37,680 nucleotides of DNA, taken from positions 1 to 37,680 of the IMG/VR virus record IMGVR_UViG_3300008113_000174; one strand, written 5' to 3'. Under the pieces are notes generated by a model that was not told the origin of the DNA, did not search any database, and worked only from the letters and a program-made list of their open reading frames with translations. Made by a program: the position numbers and the translations under genes. Positions 8,327 to 37,478 of the stretch are shown in pieces. Source of the stretch: a virus. Every line of letters begins with the position of its first letter. Positions within the stretch are counted from its first letter, which is position 1.

Positions 8327-8332
8327 ATTCTA
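8327..8332 (-). promoter_or_regulatory. Candidate leaderless -10 element (TAGAAT) before the 701-aa gene
   Basis: The minus strand reads TAGAAT, ACCCCT, ATG. The hexamer is one mismatch from TATAAT and is spaced six bases from the start codon. It shares the pattern GGTAGAATA-CCCCTATG almost exactly with the gene starting at 23060. The first three bases double as the stop codon of the upstream gene, so part of the match may be fortuitous. Confidence 0.45.
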
Positions 8333-9127
8333 CCGCTTCAAATAACTGGCCTCCAACTTAGGAGCCCAACGAAGCTGGCTAGAGACATTGCTGACGGTGA
8401 GACCCCACTTGGGGCAATGAACGCTATTCCCCGTATTCTGGGACATACAGGCGTAGCAGCAGCCAATGTAGTCTGGGTTGTTGGTCTTGTCGTCCTTCTC
8501 CACCCATTCACCATCCCGCTTCTCATAACGCTCGTGGTGAATCGGGATGTTGTTCTCCTCGATGTACCGCCATACGTCCGCGTGGGTGAAGTGGCGGATT
8601 GGGAACGCCGCAGACGGAGCCCCGATGTTCATAGCCACATCCGAGAACAGGGGCACATCACCCATAATCGGATCGCTGTCTACCGACTTATGGCCGTGGA
8701 ACACTAAGTCGAAGGGGTAGTTGAACGTGCCGGTTGGCTTGCCGTAGATTTCAGTAAGGGCACAAAGGGTGTCTGGCCCCTTGTCTTCGTGCTTCAGGCC
8801 CGTGGGCAGATGAACGGTTCTGGCTCCAATCTGGTAGTAGTTGACTACCTCCATATCCGAACCGACTTCCGCTGCTGCCGTGCTAGCGGGAGGGTAGTCG
8901 ATAACGTGCAAGTCCCACTCCTTCATCACCCGATTGGCGTAGTCATATTTGTGATGCTGGAATGGCTCTCGGTGGAAGATAACCTTCAGTCGCTTGAAGG
9001 TGTTAACCAAATGCAGGACAACCACACTGTCCTTGCCAAAGCTGCACATCACCGCCGGATTCCTTGAGTTCTCAAGGCCAGCCTTGATAGTGAGTTTGGC
9101 TAGGGCGACTTTCTGCTCATAGGTCAT
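8330..9127 (-). CDS. Phosphoadenosine phosphosulfate (PAPS) reductase-like PP-loop protein
   Basis: A 265-residue member of the PP-loop ATP pyrophosphatase/PAPS-reductase superfamily. The SFGKDSVV loop at residues 29-36 binds the phosphates of the adenylyl substrate, and FPIRHFTHADVWRYIEENNI is the helical motif that follows in PAPS/APS reductases and DndC-like proteins. Near the C-terminus four cysteines (C223, C224, C227, C238; CCYAC and HCPKWG) could hold an iron-sulfur cluster or take part in sulfur transfer. Possible roles are sulfonucleotide reduction, or thiolation of nucleic acid as in DndC; the sequence alone does not decide. No dndD, dndE or IscS partner is in the window. It overlaps the upstream virion gene by four bases (ATGA), so it is made with structural proteins. 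Confidence 0.85.
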   Translation of the reverse strand: MTYEQKVALAKLTIKAGLENSRNPAVMCSFGKDSVVVLHLVNTFKRLKVIFHREPFQHHKYDYANRVMKEWDLHVIDYPPASTAAAEVGSDMEVVNYYQIGARTVHLPTGLKHEDKGPDTLCALTEIYGKPTGTFNYPFDLVFHGHKSVDSDPIMGDVPLFSDVAMNIGAPSAAFPIRHFTHADVWRYIEENNIPIHHERYEKRDGEWVEKDDKTNNPDYIGCCYACMSQNTGNSVHCPKWGLTVSNVSSQLRWAPKLEASYLKR

Positions 9128-24289: not shown

Positions 24290-25324
24290 CTACTGCACAG
24301 CGGACAGCGCGTTGAAATAGCGATTGTAGTCGAACATCTTGGATCGCATCGAGAACATCTTGATGGCACGATTTATGATAGTAATTCGACTGAGCGACTG
24401 GGCGTGATGCAGGGCCGAGGCCATCTCATCCACCGTGTTGCACCGGAAGCCGGTGACGCCATCCTCGACGGACTCAACAAAACCTCCATAATTTGTTGAT
24501 ACCACTGGAGTTCCAGAAAGCTGGGCCTCGCAGGCCACGTTGCCAAATGGCTCAAAGGTGCGCGTGGGGCAGATGAGCACACTAGCCTCGCCAAGGAGCG
24601 CCAGCTTCTGATCCAAATCAACCACGCCCAAGTATTCGGCATTTCGCGTTACGAGCTTGGGGTTGCCAAAACCAGCCACCTTGAGGGGCATACCCGCCTT
24701 TTGAGCGGCCTCACAGGCCTCTTCGATTCCCTTGGCTGGCGTCACTCGTCCCAAGAACAACGCATACGGCTTCTTGGGTACGTTACGGACATACTCCATA
24801 TCGTCGTAAAAGGCGTTAATCACGGTGTCGTGCTGGTCAATAGGACGACTGTTGGCCCATCGACCAATGCAGTAGGAGCGCCAAACGTGACTCTCCCACA
24901 CCTTCCACTTGGAGAAGAAGCCCTCGTAGCCAATCCCATACTCCACCACCTTCAGGTCTGGCAAAGAGTCGGCAATCTGCTTCTGGCAGTTGCCTCCCAG
25001 CACGCATACGAAATCCCCGGGCTGCTTCCGCTTGTTTATCTCGTCCACAGCCGTTTGGTTGGTCTTCACCCAAATCGGATGGCCGGTCTGCCAAGACGGG
25101 TAGATGTAGTGGCTTCCGCCAGTGATGAGCTTCTGGTCCTCCTCGGTGCTAATCACAACGTGCTCATCACAGATTGCCTGATTCTCAGGCCCGCTGTAGA
25201 GGAACACCGTGTGGCCCAAGGTCTTCATCATCCAACAGAACCTGATGGTCTTCTGGCTAAACCCGCAGGCAGAGTAGGCGCGGGTGGTGAAACTCTGCGG
25301 CATCGCTACAACGTGGAATCGCAT
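24290..25324 (-). CDS. Glycosyltransferase family 4-like (GT-B fold)
   Basis: A 344-residue protein. I start it at the ATG at 25324 because MRFHVVAMPQSF supplies the first Rossmann strand; the upstream open frame would cover a terminator hairpin. The C-terminal donor domain is typical of GT4: YALFLGRVTPAKGIEEACEA, then VLICPTRTFEPFGNVACEAQ with the EX7E pair EPFGNVACE that binds the nucleotide-sugar, then GTPVVSTNYGGFVESVEDG. It should transfer a sugar to a glycan, protein or modified base. It sits between adaptor and minor virion genes, so capsid or tail decoration or change of host glycans are both possible. Its ATG directly follows six U after the hairpin, with no Shine-Dalgarno. Confidence 0.87.
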   Translation of the reverse strand: MRFHVVAMPQSFTTRAYSACGFSQKTIRFCWMMKTLGHTVFLYSGPENQAICDEHVVISTEEDQKLITGGSHYIYPSWQTGHPIWVKTNQTAVDEINKRKQPGDFVCVLGGNCQKQIADSLPDLKVVEYGIGYEGFFSKWKVWESHVWRSYCIGRWANSRPIDQHDTVINAFYDDMEYVRNVPKKPYALFLGRVTPAKGIEEACEAAQKAGMPLKVAGFGNPKLVTRNAEYLGVVDLDQKLALLGEASVLICPTRTFEPFGNVACEAQLSGTPVVSTNYGGFVESVEDGVTGFRCNTVDEMASALHHAQSLSRITIINRAIKMFSMRSKMFDYNRYFNALSAVQ

Positions 25325-25352
25325 AAAAAAGGCGCACCCATAAGGATGCGCC
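25325..25352 (-). terminator. Rho-independent terminator abutting the glycosyltransferase ATG
   Basis: The minus strand forms a 9-bp stem (GGCGCATCC with GGGTGCGCC, one G-U pair) with a TTAT loop, followed by six T and then immediately the ATG of the glycosyltransferase. It lies 24 bases after the adaptor gene stop, so it should end most head-gene transcripts. Confidence 0.8.
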
Positions 25353-25376
25353 GTTGAGCTTCGGGTCAATCGAATA

Positions 25377-26000
25377 CTACCGGATGGTAGAGTGACGCGA
25401 CTGCGTGGAGCTGTGCGACCGGATGCGCTTCCCAATGGTGTTGAAGTTGCGTTGGTTCATCACGTTCTCCAGCTCCAACGCCAACAGCGACTCGGCATAG
25501 CCATCCTCAGCCGCAGCCTTCTCGTTCTGGCCATCATACCGGAGGAAGTCGGCAAAGGCCCCGTGCGCAGCATACTGGAAGAACTCCTGCGGCACCTGCG
25601 TGTTGGTCGTGGTGTTGTAGTCCCCGTCCCAGCGCTTCTTGTAGTCCACGTACACCGTCGTTACGTCGTCTGGCTTGGACAGAATGGTGGCCCCGCCATT
25701 GGTGACGTAGAACGAATACTCAGGCACAGAGTAGGTGCCGTAGGGCGATTCCCGATAGATGCGCAGGAACGTATCTATGGGCTCCAAGGTGGCCTGCGTA
25801 AACGGCACCAGCCCGCCCGAGACGGCACGAGCTTCACCCGTGACCAAGTAGCGGGGCCAGTGCTGGTTGCGCCGATAAGCGTTGTAGAGTCTCCGGTTGA
25901 TGAACGACGACACCAGCGCCGTCTCCTCCGTCGTAAAGGCGGTGTTTCCGGTGAGCCCCTTGGTGAGCGTCAGGAGATTGCTGAAGGTGTCGGTTTGCAT
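25377..26000 (-). CDS. Head-tail adaptor / tail tubular A-like protein
   Basis: A 207-residue protein. The N-terminal helices (TFSNLLTLTKGLTGNTAFTT, then SSFINRRLYNAYRRNQHWPR), an aromatic beta segment and a long C-terminal helix (AHGAFADFLRYDGQNEKAAA) fit adaptor or gatekeeper proteins that dock on the portal, comparable with T7 gp11. Gene order (after capsid genes, before tail genes) supports this. It starts in a TGATG overlap with the upstream gene and is followed by a strong terminator. Confidence 0.62.
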   Translation of the reverse strand: MQTDTFSNLLTLTKGLTGNTAFTTEETALVSSFINRRLYNAYRRNQHWPRYLVTGEARAVSGGLVPFTQATLEPIDTFLRIYRESPYGTYSVPEYSFYVTNGGATILSKPDDVTTVYVDYKKRWDGDYNTTTNTQVPQEFFQYAAHGAFADFLRYDGQNEKAAAEDGYAESLLALELENVMNQRNFNTIGKRIRSHSSTQSRHSTIR

Positions 26001-31849: not shown

Positions 31850-33449
31850 TCTTAGGGCGGGTTATGGCCATCTGGCCGGGGGAAATATGCCTAATGTCGG
31901 CTATGGCAGCATACCGGAGGACATCCACGGGGTCTTTCCACGCCTCATCCAGCCCACCCTCAGCCGTATACTCCTGAATGGCCGTGATGATGTTCTGACA
32001 GCGGTTGCTGATGTAGATGCGGGGCCGGTTGACGCTGTCCATCGGCTTCTTGCGGTCGTAAGCCATCTTGGTTTGCAGCGCCTGAAGCCCATCCTCGATG
32101 TCCAACCCCGGTGCGGGCACAAACACCAACGCATTGTCGCTCAAATCCTCGATGATGGACGACGCGCCGTTCTGGGTTTGGTACTTTTGGGCACCTAGGC
32201 GGGGGTCGATGAGTCTTTCAAGGGGCTTGAGCCCCAAGTCCTGCTCAATCTGGCCAATCAGAGTGACATAGTCGCCTATTCCATACCCCAAGCCCTTGGC
32301 ACCGGGGCCATTCATCCACTTCCCGCCCCGCATCTCAGCCCACTCACCCACATTGATGTCGGGCCACTCAGCCACCACGTACCAAGTGTCGCTGGGATCG
32401 ACCACAATCCAGCACATAAACCAGTTTTTGCGCCCCGCAGGGTCCAGCACCATATAGTGGGTGCAGTCCTTCTTGGGTATCTTCTCCGGTTCAATGACGT
32501 TCACCTCAAGGGAGAAGCCCGGGAAGCGCGTGGTGAGCGTCTTGGTGGGCACGCCATAGGCCGCAGTGAGCGTGTAGGCGTCGTCGCCCTTTGCCTTACA
32601 CTGCTCGGCAATGCTGGCATACCCAGACCAAGGGTTGTCCTTGCTGTGGAAGTAGACGATGCCTGTGTTCTTGGGCTCGTTCTCCTGAAGGTAGGGCACC
32701 TCTATGTTCCGCAACAGCTCAGCCCGCCTCGACTCGATGGTCTTTGCCCCGTCCAAGTAGTAGCGCACCGTCTCCGTCGTCCCGTCCTTGGGGGTGAACG
32801 TCAGCAGCAGCTTAGACCCACGGGTGGCCAGACGCAGGTAGAGCCGGTCCAGCATCTCCATCCCCATCAGGTATTCGTCGCACCACGCCCCGACGTTCGT
32901 CCACTTGGGGCTCAGGCTCCCCAGCTCCATACCCTCAAGGATGGTTTGGTTCTGCTGATACTGGCTGTACGTCTTGAAGATGATGCGGCTACGGTTGGGC
33001 AGCACCAAGCTGTTCCCCGCAAAGCCATTCTGCATCGAATAGCTGATGTAGTGGGTTTCCTCAGTAGCCTTCTTCTTCAGCTCCAGCGGCAGGTAGGTGT
33101 AGACGGCACTCTGCTGCACCAGAATGGAAGTCTCCTGATTCTGGCTGAAGCAATAAAGGAGACTCTCCTCGTTTTCCAGCGCCGCCTTCACCACCGTCTT
33201 GGCCCCAAACATTGTCTTGCCGCTACGGTTGGCCCCGAGCAGGAGCAGCGTCTTGCGCTTAGCCAGCATCTCCTCCGCCTTCTTCCAGTGGGGCAGGTCC
33301 CACCCATAGCGGTAGGGGTCGCGCCTGCTATTGGCAATGGCCGAATGGTAAAGCTCGTGGAGCTTGAGGACATCCTCGGGCTCCATCTGGACCAACTCCT
33401 TGTCGGAGGGGGCCTTGAGGATTTCGTGCTTCTGCCAAACTAGGCTCAT
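31836..33449 (-). CDS. terL: Terminase large subunit
   Basis: A 537-residue packaging motor. Walker A is GANRSGKT at residues 72-79; Walker B is WTNVGAWCDEYL with D191 and E192; the coupling motif is LTFTPKDG near 216-223. The C-terminal nuclease domain starts at YMVLDPAGRKNW, with D336 as a likely metal ligand, and continues to LIDPRLGAQKYQTQNG, where a second acidic residue sits. It cuts concatemeric DNA and translocates it into the head through the portal. It overlaps the methyltransferase by four bases and the next small gene by 14. Confidence 0.94.
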   Translation of the reverse strand: MSLVWQKHEILKAPSDKELVQMEPEDVLKLHELYHSAIANSRRDPYRYGWDLPHWKKAEEMLAKRKTLLLLGANRSGKTMFGAKTVVKAALENEESLLYCFSQNQETSILVQQSAVYTYLPLELKKKATEETHYISYSMQNGFAGNSLVLPNRSRIIFKTYSQYQQNQTILEGMELGSLSPKWTNVGAWCDEYLMGMEMLDRLYLRLATRGSKLLLTFTPKDGTTETVRYYLDGAKTIESRRAELLRNIEVPYLQENEPKNTGIVYFHSKDNPWSGYASIAEQCKAKGDDAYTLTAAYGVPTKTLTTRFPGFSLEVNVIEPEKIPKKDCTHYMVLDPAGRKNWFMCWIVVDPSDTWYVVAEWPDINVGEWAEMRGGKWMNGPGAKGLGYGIGDYVTLIGQIEQDLGLKPLERLIDPRLGAQKYQTQNGASSIIEDLSDNALVFVPAPGLDIEDGLQALQTKMAYDRKKPMDSVNRPRIYISNRCQNIITAIQEYTAEGGLDEAWKDPVDVLRYAAIADIRHISPGQMAITRPKNAFY

Positions 33450-34213
33450 TTAGCCTTCCACAGGGCGTAGGGGTGGCAGGACATCCCAAGCGTCAGTTCC
33501 TCCACCAAATCATACTTGTCCTGCAAGAGGGGCAGGTAGGAGGGGTGTCCGTCCTGATGGCAGAGATAGGCGTTGTTGTTGGCTAGTTGCCCGTGACTCA
33601 CCGTGAACAGGAAGGGCACCTTCAGCAGCTTCAATATCTCTAGCCAGCAGGCAATCGAGGCCAACGAGCACTCATTCCAGCTATGGATGTTCACCGCCAC
33701 ATCCAGCAAGGGCTTCTGCTCCAAGAGCTGCTCAGGACTCACTACGTGAACGTTCCCAGTGTGGACGTACGTCTTAACGTACGTCCGACAGACTCGCTGA
33801 CTCACCTCCACCCCATCCGTGCACCAGTAGTCCCTGACATAGGAAGACGCGCTGACGGCAAGCCGCCCATACCCAGCTCCAATGTCCAAGAAGTTGCGAT
33901 TGAGTAGCCCGTGCTTGTTCAGGAACCAAAGCTCCGTGTTGGAATCCAGCCACTGGCGGGTGACGGGGCCAAACGCCTCGGTGGGCACACACCTAGCGCC
34001 GTGGTTGACATCCCGCAACCGGCCATAGAAGTCGAACGGAAACTCGTCCCAACAATCAATCCAGTTGGCTATCTCATCAAACTCCTCGGGCCTCTGGCTA
34101 TCCTGCTCCACAAAGACAGGGCTCTTCGCATACTGGTCCCCGGCAGCGACAACCATCTGCTGCCACTGGTCCCACATCGCCAAGCTCTTAACTCCCGCTA
34201 CTAGGTGATTCAT
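33446..34213 (-). CDS. SAM-dependent methyltransferase, sugar-O-methyltransferase-like
   Basis: A 255-residue class I methyltransferase. FLDIGAGYGRLAV at 108-120 is motif I for SAM binding. DGVEVSQRVCRTYV follows as the acidic second strand, and LDVAVNIHSWNECSL sits where motif IV would be. It lacks the NPPY or PC motifs of DNA N- or C5-methyltransferases. The layout resembles proteins annotated as putative sugar O-methyltransferases, so a glycan or small molecule is the more likely substrate than DNA. It is wedged between the two terminase genes, overlapping both (26 and 4 bases). With the glycosyltransferase it could modify virion or host sugars; that link is inference. Confidence 0.75.
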   Translation of the reverse strand: MNHLVAGVKSLAMWDQWQQMVVAAGDQYAKSPVFVEQDSQRPEEFDEIANWIDCWDEFPFDFYGRLRDVNHGARCVPTEAFGPVTRQWLDSNTELWFLNKHGLLNRNFLDIGAGYGRLAVSASSYVRDYWCTDGVEVSQRVCRTYVKTYVHTGNVHVVSPEQLLEQKPLLDVAVNIHSWNECSLASIACWLEILKLLKVPFLFTVSHGQLANNNAYLCHQDGHPSYLPLLQDKYDLVEELTLGMSCHPYALWKAK

Positions 34214-34768: not shown

Positions 34769-35013
34769 CATCCACAGCCATAAATCATAAATGGAATCTT
34801 TGTACTAAACCAGCGTAACTTTTGGTGCCTCCCCCCCGTCCCCTACTCCTTTCAATCCCCGGGAAACCCACAGGAACTCCTTCCGTTACCGGGCGACTGT
34901 GTAAATTTTTTTGAACCGACTGGGTGGACCCGATAATGGGCGACCCCCGAGCGCAGCGGTGACCCCCTCCCCCCCCCTGTGAGTCTGCGAACGCTGTTAT
35001 CCCCCGCGGGGCG

Positions 35014-35029
35014 TTCCGGGGGGCCGGAA
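35014..35029. repeat. Inverted repeat TTCCGG/CCGGAA
   Basis: TTCCGG, a GGGG spacer and CCGGAA form a perfect 6-bp stem, immediately next to the palindrome CCCCGCGGGG. Together they could fold as adjacent hairpins. Confidence 0.6.
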
Positions 35030-35071
35030 TGTCTCACATACGCGGGAAGAGTGAGCAATTCAACCGTTTCC

Positions 35072-35118
35072 CGGCCCTTTTGGGGTGCCCTTCCCTCCCC
35101 TTTCGGCCCTTTTGGGGT
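35072..35118. repeat. Two copies of a 15-bp direct repeat, period 32
   Basis: CGGCCCTTTTGGGGT occurs at 35072-35086 and again at 35104-35118. Each copy is itself a partial palindrome (GCCC-TTTT-GGGG). Confidence 0.75.
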
Positions 35119-35123
35119 TCGCT

Positions 35124-35168
35124 GCCACTCCCCTGCCCTGCCGGGAGCCACTCCCCTGCCCTGCCGGG
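35124..35168. repeat. Two copies of a 22-bp direct repeat, period 23
   Basis: Identical 22-base units at 35124-35145 and 35147-35168, each running from GCCACTCCCC to TGCCGGG, separated by one base. The second copy leads into a G9 run. Confidence 0.85.
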
Positions 35169-35184
35169 GGGGGGCGTGGGGCAC

Positions 35185-35215
35185 GGAAAAGCCCCGGCTT
35201 GGCGGGCCGGGGCTT
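35185..35215 (-). terminator. Terminator of the MoxR/VWA operon
   Basis: AAGCCCCGGC and GCCGGGGCTT form a perfect 10-bp stem with a seven-base loop. Reading the minus strand, the stem is followed by a short T-run (TTTT including the stem end). It lies 22 bases after the stop of the 48-aa membrane protein, so it closes the operon transcribed from 37.5 kb downward. Confidence 0.8.
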
Positions 35216-35237
35216 GTGGGTGTTGGGCTTGGTGGGC

Positions 35238-35384
35238 TTAGGCGGGCGGGTCGCGGGGGTCTCGCCCGTCCGCGGGCGGCGGGTTGTGCCTGCCCGAGGT
35301 GCCGCTCACGACGAGGAGCAGCGCCCAGCAAACGAGGGCCAGCGCGATGACGGCGCCAACTATGACATCGAGGGCGCGGCTCAT
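35238..35384 (-). CDS. Tiny single-pass membrane protein, third gene of the MoxR/VWA operon
   Basis: A 48-residue frame starting at the ATG at 35384, which overlaps the VWA stop (ATGA) and has GGAGG seven bases ahead. It reads MSRALDVIVGAVIALALVCW, then ALLLVVSGTSGRH and a Pro/Arg/Asp-rich tail ending in PPA. Residues about 6-27 form one clear transmembrane helix, with a short proline-rich charged end. The good ribosome site, coupling to the upstream gene and the terminator just downstream support it as a real operon member. It may anchor or receive the AAA+/VWA pair at the membrane; that is inference. No family is recognised. Confidence 0.65.
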   Translation of the reverse strand: MSRALDVIVGAVIALALVCWALLLVVSGTSGRHNPPPADGRDPRDPPA

Positions 35385-36769
35385 CGGGAGGCCTCCGTGA
35401 TGTGCACCATCAGGGCGTGCATGTCGGTGCAGCGCTCGATGCGCCCGCGCACGGCGATGGCCATCGCTTCCTCATCGAGGTGGGCGGCGGCGTCATCGCC
35501 GCAGCCGGTCACGACGCCATCACATACCCAGATGCGCGGCTCGCTTTGGGCGGCGAGCCAGCGTAGCGCGGGGCCATCGACAATGTTGCCCATGCCCACA
35601 TCCCTGATACGTTGCTCGATGGCGGCGCTGGATGCGCAGCGCCCACCCTTGGCGATAACCGAGATAACGCCGCCGTCATTGCGGCCCGAATAAATCGCGA
35701 CGGTCGCGGCGGGCAGCTTGGCGAGCACGGCATGCACATCGGAGGCCTCAAGGTTCATGGAGCCCGAGGTGTCCACCAATATGGTGCCGCCCTTCGCGGC
35801 ACGCTGCACCGTGCGCCGGTAGCATCGGCCATCCGTCAGGGCGCGGCGGATGGAACCGAGGCGGGAGCCAACGGGGACCGCGAGCTTGCGCCTCTGGGCG
35901 GCGGTTGCGGTTGCGTGCTCGGTCATGGGCAGCGGCGGCATGCTATCGAGCGTGCCCCAGTTGAGCGACTGATCGCCGGTGCGCAGCGGGCGCGATACGC
36001 CCTCATGCCCCGGCGGCAGTTCGGTGACGGCATTAAGGCGGCGGCGGAAATACGCCGCAGCGGGGCCGACAAGGCGGAACGGGAAGCGACCCTGCCGCGC
36101 CGGGGGGCGGCGCTTTGGGCGGAGCATCAGCGCGGTAGCCTGCGCGATGCTCTGGGCGCGATCGAGCACATCGGAGAGCACGTGCAGATCACGGTCGGCC
36201 GAGCGTCCGGCAGCGTTGGCCTCGGCGATGGTGAGCCGGCACAACTGCCCGCGCAGCGCCTTAACCTCTAGCCCGCATTCGGTGTTATCGAGTCGGGCGT
36301 CGTTCTTGCCAAAGCCCAAGGCCATGCTTTGCAGGCATAACATGGCATATGGGGCCAGAAGCTTTTCGGGTTTCGGCTCGGGGCCTTTGATGTGCTCAAA
36401 CCATTCCTGCGCCCGCGCGGCGATCCGCTCCGCGCCGTCGCGGGGGATGGCACCGAGGCCAGCGTCGCGGAGGAGCGTTAGTATGCGGCAATCCTCGACC
36501 AACTGCACATCGAGGACGGTTGCGGGAGCGTTGGCCTTGGCGATGCGCCCGGGGTTGGATTTGCGCGGAGTCCACCGTGCGTGGCCCATCTCATGCACGG
36601 CGACCCAGCGGGCGGCGTGGTCCTCGCGATGCAGCACGCGCATGGTGCGGTCATCCAGATTGGTGGAGCCCTCGGTGGAGCCTATCGGCGGGGCCTCGGT
36701 GACAATCCAGCCAAGGCCGTCGATGGCTCCCGGGATCGGGCGCGGGTCGGCGATGTTTTGCGTGGTCAT
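35381..36769 (-). CDS. VWA-domain protein with HExxH metallopeptidase-like N-terminal region
   Basis: A 462-residue protein. Residues 59-63 are HEMGH, a zinc-binding HExxH, followed about 30 residues later by VEDCR, which could supply the third ligand. This arrangement recalls the putative metallopeptidase domain found before VWA domains (DUF2201/CobT-like proteins). The C-terminal VWA has the MIDAS DTSGS at 333-337 and WVCDG near 415-418 for the later aspartate. The middle MIDAS threonine position reads GNIVDG, so that Thr seems absent. Such proteins are partners of MoxR/CobS-type AAA+ ATPases, and one is encoded directly upstream, seven bases away. The substrate is unknown. Codons are distinctly GC-rich compared with the structural genes. 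Confidence 0.85.
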   Translation of the reverse strand: MTTQNIADPRPIPGAIDGLGWIVTEAPPIGSTEGSTNLDDRTMRVLHREDHAARWVAVHEMGHARWTPRKSNPGRIAKANAPATVLDVQLVEDCRILTLLRDAGLGAIPRDGAERIAARAQEWFEHIKGPEPKPEKLLAPYAMLCLQSMALGFGKNDARLDNTECGLEVKALRGQLCRLTIAEANAAGRSADRDLHVLSDVLDRAQSIAQATALMLRPKRRPPARQGRFPFRLVGPAAAYFRRRLNAVTELPPGHEGVSRPLRTGDQSLNWGTLDSMPPLPMTEHATATAAQRRKLAVPVGSRLGSIRRALTDGRCYRRTVQRAAKGGTILVDTSGSMNLEASDVHAVLAKLPAATVAIYSGRNDGGVISVIAKGGRCASSAAIEQRIRDVGMGNIVDGPALRWLAAQSEPRIWVCDGVVTGCGDDAAAHLDEEAMAIAVRGRIERCTDMHALMVHITEASR

Positions 36770-36776
36770 GGCTGGA

Positions 36777-37478
36777 TTAGGCGTTGGCGACGACGAGGGA
36801 ATCGAGCACGGCGGAAGCGCGTGAGCCGAACACTAGCTCGGCGGCGGTGTCGGTGCTCATGCAGCCGCGAAGCTCAGCGAAAGCGCGCCACTGGCGCATC
36901 GTGATTTTGGGGTCTGAATTCCATGTGGAAGCCGCAGCCTTGCGCAAGTCCTCGGGGAGGGCCGCGATGGCGGCAGGGTGCGGCTGGTTGACATGCACGC
37001 GCACGCTGAAACGGTCGGCGACGCCCTCGCTCCGAAAAGCCTCGGCGGGGTCGGCGTTTGTCGTCGCGATGCAATGGAATCCCTGCGCGGGCCTGACGGT
37101 CTCACCGGCGGCGGTGACGTAAACGGCGGAGCCGCTTTCGTCCGCGATGGTGTGCAGCGCGCTTTCCGCGTCTCCGTTGGCCTTGTCGGCCTCGTTCACA
37201 ACCAACCTCGCGCCGCAGCGCCAAGCCCGCAGGGCGGGGCCGTCATTCCAGCGAAAGCCGTCGGGCGTGGAGATATAGTAACCCATGAGGTCGGCGGCGC
37301 TGGTGTCGCTGGTGAGCGTCACCGTGATGGGCTCGGGTGCCCCCTGCTTTAGGCCAACGCGTTGGGCAGCGTAAGTCTTTCCGGTCCCGGCGGGGCCATG
37401 TAAGCAGGCGGTGCGGTTTGCGGTCAGGATCGCTTCGGCCAGAGCCCAGCAGCGGGCGATTACGTTTTCCGTGTTCAT
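36777..37478 (-). CDS. MoxR/CobS-like AAA+ ATPase
   Basis: A 233-residue AAA+ protein. Walker A is GPAGTGKT at 28-35. Walker B is RLVVNEADKA at 91-100, with Asn in place of the usual first Asp (NE instead of DE). Sensor 1 is CIATTNADP near 137-143, and GVADRF (R156) holds the likely arginine finger. TSDTSAADLMGYY is the MoxR/CobS-type segment that precedes the substrate loop. It is shorter than most MoxR proteins and has little C-terminal lid. MoxR ATPases act as chaperones or metal-insertion motors with VWA partners, and the VWA gene follows within seven bases. It begins the operon; an inverted repeat lies about 120 bases upstream. Confidence 0.9.
   Translation of the reverse strand: MNTENVIARCWALAEAILTANRTACLHGPAGTGKTYAAQRVGLKQGAPEPITVTLTSDTSAADLMGYYISTPDGFRWNDGPALRAWRCGARLVVNEADKANGDAESALHTIADESGSAVYVTAAGETVRPAQGFHCIATTNADPAEAFRSEGVADRFSVRVHVNQPHPAAIAALPEDLRKAAASTWNSDPKITMRQWRAFAELRGCMSTDTAAELVFGSRASAVLDSLVVANA

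Follow-up and report, generated by a model that had tools for sequence, protein, structure and literature searches.

A tailed-phage operon of a MoxR-type AAA+ ATPase, an HExxH-VWA protein and a small membrane protein, a candidate membrane-tethered remodelling machine

The window, by which we mean the whole stretch of DNA analysed here, is an entire IMG/VR virus record of 37,680 bases, a record that may itself be incomplete. It comes from a tailed phage, whose minus strand carries genes for terminase, the major head protein and tail fibres. The sequence and its list of open reading frames (ORFs) place three minus-strand genes in an operon encoding an AAA+ ATPase, an HExxH-VWA protein and a 48-aa transmembrane (TM) protein, with the following features:

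36777..37478, minus strand: AAA+ ATPase of the MoxR/NorQ/CbbQ type, 233 aa (AAA_5; phrog_16448, phrog_249)
37374..37397, minus strand: Walker A motif GPAGTGKT, ATPase residues 28-35 (G28 and K34 invariant in 42 relatives)
35381..36769, minus strand: 462-aa protein with an N-terminal HExxH domain and a C-terminal VWA domain (phrog_33218)
36581..36595, minus strand: HEMGH motif, residues 59-63 (HExxH in 41/49 relatives)
36485..36499, minus strand: VEDCR, residues 91-95, with E92 as candidate third metal ligand (putative role; E92 in 45/49, R95 in 47/49)
35759..35773, minus strand: MIDAS motif DTSGS, residues 333-337 (D333, S335 and S337 invariant in 49 relatives)
35585..35587, minus strand: Asn395 in place of the MIDAS Thr (Asn in 49/49 relatives)
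35238..35384, minus strand: 48-aa single-helix membrane protein with a Pro-rich tail (start overlaps the VWA stop)
about 35185..35215, minus strand: terminator hairpin, 10 bp and G+C-rich, followed by TTTT (RNAfold)

The gap between the ATPase and VWA genes is 7 bp, and the 48-aa ORF starts within the VWA stop codon (ATGA overlap). A generic terminator scanner skipped the hairpin because it requires at least five Ts, whereas the hairpin is followed by four. Coordinates, spacing and hairpin agree with the initial annotation, made from the sequence alone, of three coupled minus-strand genes with their own terminator. The HEMGH, VEDCR and Thr-less MIDAS that it had read in the second protein are all in place.

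Besides Walker A, the ATPase sequence contains a Walker B motif (VVNEADKA), sensor-1 N141, Arg finger R156 and sensor-2 R195, and G28, K34, E96, N141, R156 and R195 are invariant in the alignment (42/42 relatives). The asparagine in Walker B had been singled out as a variant; it is present but is no peculiarity, given that Asn occurs in 24 of the 42 family members and Asp in 17, so that the 'NE' form is a family trait and no defect of the window phage. The protein matched AAA_5 above cut-off as well as the CobS-like phrog_249, and phrog_16448 was matched by all 42 members. Against the PDB, a profile of the 42 relatives matched NorQ (6e-23), CbbQ (3e-20) and CobS (6e-10), and also Midasin. Judged by position, DLMGYYISTPDGFRWNDG, with an invariant G66, falls where the helix-2 insert hairpin (H2i), the element that would grip the VWA finger, is to be expected.

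The VWA protein departs from the full MIDAS pattern DxSxS-T-D at the Thr, which is Asn in 49 of 49 aligned relatives, and the remaining residues, including D417, are invariant. All 49 matched phrog_33218, a cluster for which no function is stated. Pfam and NCBIfam returned nothing useful for the VWA protein or the TM protein, and a sequence profile search of the PDB with the VWA protein gave weak or low-complexity matches only. In the predicted structure (pLDDT 85, pTM 0.58) the VWA domain spans residues ~325-462, and this modelled segment adopts a VWA fold that best matches the VWA domain of NorD bound to NorQ (Z 10.2), along with many other VWA domains. Together with the NorQ/CbbQ/CobS profile matches, the NorD-like fold bears out the earlier assignment of a MoxR/CobS-type ATPase with a VWA partner. 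NorD docks on NorQ via a finger in the ATPase pore (PMC13036017). The equivalent of that finger may be the stretch just before the VWA core, in which R309 is invariant and G301 and D313 are near-invariant. Foldseek found no significant match in the PDB for either the whole VWA protein model or its N-terminal domain. The closest predicted viral structures are tailed-phage proteins annotated as VWFA or CobT, with a weak match to ORF892 of Acidianus two-tailed virus (ATV; E 0.02).

Residues of a zincin signature are widely kept in the N-terminal domain, with H59, E60 and H63 each present in 41-45 of the 49 relatives and E92, the putative ligand, in 45. In the domain model (pTM 0.87) HExxH and E92/R95 sit on two different helices. 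Solved zincins were not among its structural matches (Foldseek, VIA-align); VIA-align returned helical proteins (best Z 5.8), a result still compatible with a zincin fold. The motifs suggest that the domain could bind metal or act as a peptidase. Conservation of HEMGH, on which the initial annotation had leaned, holds in part: HExxH is found in 41 of 49 relatives, but its absence from the others needs at least three changes on the ATPase tree. The putative metal site thus appears to have been lost repeatedly, which argues that peptidase activity is not central. Members of the VWA family that lack HExxH and have intact MIDAS residues are L066, L063, L037, L027, L083, L085, L010, L013 and L015.

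The 48-aa protein contains a single strongly hydrophobic stretch (highest mean hydropathy over 19 residues, 3.0), as expected from the single membrane helix originally proposed, and four other operons carry relatives of 42-47 aa in the corresponding position. Together these make up the window's clade (window, L004, L008, L120/L122 and L121; ATPase-tree support 100/100; five distinct operons). All five operons have a single-helix ORF of 42-48 aa, Pro-rich in its tail, whose start falls -7 to +4 nt from the VWA stop, with a hairpin 3' of it (window, L004, L008, L120 and L121). The copies in L008 and L121 differ at 9 synonymous codons and 1 nonsynonymous codon, with 9 of 11 differences at codon position 3, and the L008 tail is strongly basic (net +6). 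A second TM ORF is restricted, within the window's clade, to the sister subclade of L008, L120 and L121:

L008:1814-1906, L120:1848-1940, L121:978-1070: 30-aa TM ORF between the ATPase gene and the VWA gene (its stop overlaps the start of the latter)

The divergence of this 30-aa ORF is not mainly synonymous, and its support therefore comes from position and recurrence. In the wider family, 7 of 62 VWA stops have a small TM ORF starting within -10 to +15 nt, against 5 among 435 control stops (Fisher p = 1.6e-4), a comparison in which members are not phylogenetically independent, L066 is doubtful and the control L008 sits inside such an operon. The largest clade of the family has 0 small TM genes, and the majority of the wider family is likewise without one, which implies that the core machine needs no tether. 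The expectation that the small gene is kept beside the pair therefore stands for the window's clade (5/5 distinct operons, with a shared hairpin) and fails for most of the family. The initial annotation had also named absence or frameshift of the 48-aa frame, or loss of HEMGH, as grounds for abandoning its proposal; within the window's clade the frame is neither absent nor frameshifted, and HEMGH is kept. As far as the sequences tell, the TM gene is a real, clade-specific and recurrent add-on and no universal third subunit. No PHROG matched the small TM protein. Small TM ORFs without clear kinship occur at the same place in L002, L016, L015 and L025, and those 3' of the VWA gene in L066 and L026 were judged doubtful. 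Another set of TM proteins of 48-57 aa, alike in appearance and marked by VLREHEK, ILSEHDK or ILKEHDK, is found in freshwater contigs, just after the VWA gene in L025 and further downstream in L041 and L040.

A short protein with a single helix, in one case with the basic tail of the L008 copy, could instead be an independent lysis or holin-like protein that shares the transcript by chance, and no other holin was recognised in the window. We consider this improbable, because no endolysin or other lysis gene was recognised beside the operon, the stop/start overlap and shared hairpin recur in the window's clade, and the sister subclade has a different second TM protein between the ATPase and VWA genes.

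Dozens of viral contigs carry related ATPase and VWA genes side by side (phrog_16448 with phrog_33218), and 80 of the 93 sequences fetched contain both. Bacterial genomes could not be scanned with alignment A4 because of its divergence, and alignment A8 found one contig in them, from a Gammaproteobacteria MAG. With four VWA family members as queries, tblastn gave 0 matches in 50,697 phage records, so deposited phages represent the VWA family poorly.

In the window's clade the operon lies upstream of TerS, and of TerL where the contig reaches it, on the same strand, with about 450-930 bp without an assigned gene between operon and TerS. This position would fit a packaging or assembly role, and it counts against the explanation that we favour, a NorQD-like machine acting on a host client. 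A virion-assembly chaperone with a processing peptidase, in which the pair would act on structural or packaging proteins by remodelling and perhaps by cleavage, is a serious rival, albeit on balance an unlikely one. It is the published proposal for the jumbo-phage pair (PMC7824862), it draws on experiments with p618/p892 of Acidianus two-tailed virus (reviewed in PMC4124505), and two further loci, L014 and L067, have the pair close upstream of TerL, beside a small terminase that by eye is of another type. However, when TerL was sought via phrog_2 in 50 records, 14 had a match, and the window's clade, L014 and L067 were the only ones in which the pair lay near it on the same strand. In most TerL-bearing records it is remote or on the opposite strand, and terminase adjacency was rejected as a general rule. 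At ~25 loci the pair is in a recombination or replication neighbourhood, adjoining an HTH-like gene, a calcineurin-like phosphoesterase and a Rad52-like protein; in S-PM2 it sits between gp46 and gp45. Phage C75C1 (OQ984151.1, L094) has a 40%-identical TerL and a similar gene order, but no ATPase or VWA match with A5 and A8, in a search run without a positive control and with profiles that found the pair in other phage records. These neighbourhoods and the C75C1 blank favour an accessory function over an obligatory role in virion assembly, and membrane microproteins are no obvious fit to capsid assembly. For the structural genes, C75C1 is a possible cultured reference.

NorQ/NorD and CbbQ/CbbO, host chaperones for nitric oxide reductase or rubisco, are the closest solved relatives, the ATPase by sequence and the VWA domain by fold. 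They differ in having the MIDAS Thr, and we know of no HExxH domain in NorD. The p618/p892 proteins of Acidianus two-tailed virus are likewise a viral MoxR ATPase and VWA partner, with the weak structural match to ORF892 given above, but they belong to an archaeal spindle-shaped virus and include a virion protein, and no metallopeptidase motif has been reported for them (PMC7824862).

The AAA+/VWA pair itself is already known in phages. A MoxR AAA+ ATPase with a vWA-metallopeptidase was described in 2021 in group 2.2 jumbo phages, for which virion assembly and peptide processing were proposed (PMC7824862), and the window shows what defines the pair of Iyer et al. 2021, an ATPase gene next to a gene for a VWA protein with an N-terminal HExxH domain. 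By the published description, both systems are found in tailed phages and place a MoxR-type ATPase gene next to one for a VWA protein whose N-terminal domain resembles a metallopeptidase; unlike the jumbo-phage pair, that of the window has a VWA protein of 462 aa, stems from a record of 37.7 kb and falls in a clade with one or two small membrane proteins. For the small TM proteins we found no description in the literature searched, which was thin on subscription journals, and a third gene beside the AAA+/VWA pair seems to be undescribed.

The cyanophage, pelagiphage and haloviral version is annotated as cobS plus 'peptidase' or as cobST; the haloviral and cyanophage pair was named cobST, and the 'peptidase' label was held to be a misannotation (PMC8651126). 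In an arrangement shared with the window, S-PM2 and HTVC008M have an HExxH motif (there HEVGHALxTP), an EDxR motif (there EDxRI) and a VWA domain in succession, next to a CobS-like ATPase. The window family is linked to the pelagiphage 'peptidase' by an HMM match (2.8e-10) and, in the HExxH region, by an alignment of profiles (1.5e-5), and tblastn with the window VWA protein left the cyanophage and pelagiphage 'peptidase' unmatched. These proteins differ in their length (740-785 aa), in keeping the MIDAS Thr (GTPL), in a reversed gene order and in a larger ATPase. Under the reading published for haloviruses and cyanophages (PMC8651126), the viral pair would replace host CobS/CobT and, with host CobN, insert cobalt for cobalamin synthesis. 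We regard this as very unlikely for the window: it has in its favour the phrog_249 match and the CobT-annotated structural neighbours, but Pfam CobT (PF06213) had 0 matches in the 14 viral records searched, with the control genome Caulobacter positive, and matches neither the window VWA family nor the pelagiphage 'peptidase'. In addition, the ATPase is nearer to NorQ/CbbQ than to CobS, and a dedicated membrane protein is no part of CobST.

The accessory distribution, own terminator and membrane proteins would also suit superinfection exclusion or another phage-phage or defence function at the membrane. To this we give little credence, because the PADLOC matches of the ATPase were weak and confined to the P-loop (the best, to IetA, with E 0.001 across 34 residues), and the pair belongs to the core genes of lytic cyanophages (PMC3037559, for cobS), unlike typical exclusion genes. 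The roles first suggested for the operon, in lysis, entry, defence or anti-defence, thus found no direct support.

We favour the view that the operon's products form a MoxR AAA+/VWA remodelling machine driven by ATP; that its core is an AAA+/VWA remodelling pair is highly probable. The ATPase would assemble as a ring, on which the VWA protein would dock with a finger-like segment in the pore, as NorD does on NorQ, and the N-terminal HExxH domain and the MIDAS site would hold or process the client. With the small TM gene mostly absent from the wider family and HExxH lost at least three times, neither appears indispensable to the core machine. The small membrane protein of the window's clade, or two in the sister subclade, would contact the machine and anchor or recruit it to the inner membrane, a tethering that gene order and conservation make rather likely. 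If the small protein does bring the machine to the inner membrane, the client would probably be a membrane-associated complex; it may well belong to the host rather than the virion, on which our confidence is evenly divided. Taken whole, our best explanation is a remodelling machine of the NorQD kind that the window's clade tethers to the membrane and whose client lies in the host rather than the virion; our confidence in it is slightly less than even. More tentative still is a membrane-anchored branch of the viral AAA+/VWA/HExxH machines, brought to the inner membrane by one or two single-span microproteins dedicated to the task, where a host membrane complex would be remodelled or cleaved during infection.

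Phage MoxR-vWA pairs are widespread, and two published guesses at their client, virion assembly and cobalamin, compete. Where, as in the window's clade, conserved membrane microproteins accompany the pair, the client question becomes testable, with the small protein as a handle that would be expected to pull down both machine and client.

The noncoding stretch between operon and TerS (window 34782-35237, L004:5297-5948 and equivalents in L008, L120 and L121) contains a G-rich element, GCAGACTCACAGGGGGGGGGAGGGGG, conserved in the window and L004, with related G-runs in L120, and it also carries repeats of GGGCAGGGGAG. The element and repeats 5' of TerS are a candidate packaging or regulatory site. 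Contig L001, otherwise 99.97% identical, has ~88 extra bases in the same stretch, at window 35005 (L001:2700-2789). Between TerS and TerL the window has a 255-aa ORF (33446-34213, minus strand) with, by eye, a methyltransferase-like DIGAGYGR and no PHROG match; a 64-aa ORF takes its place in L004. The structural arm of the window also includes PAPS reductase-like (8330-9127, minus strand) and glycosyltransferase (24290-25435, minus strand) genes.
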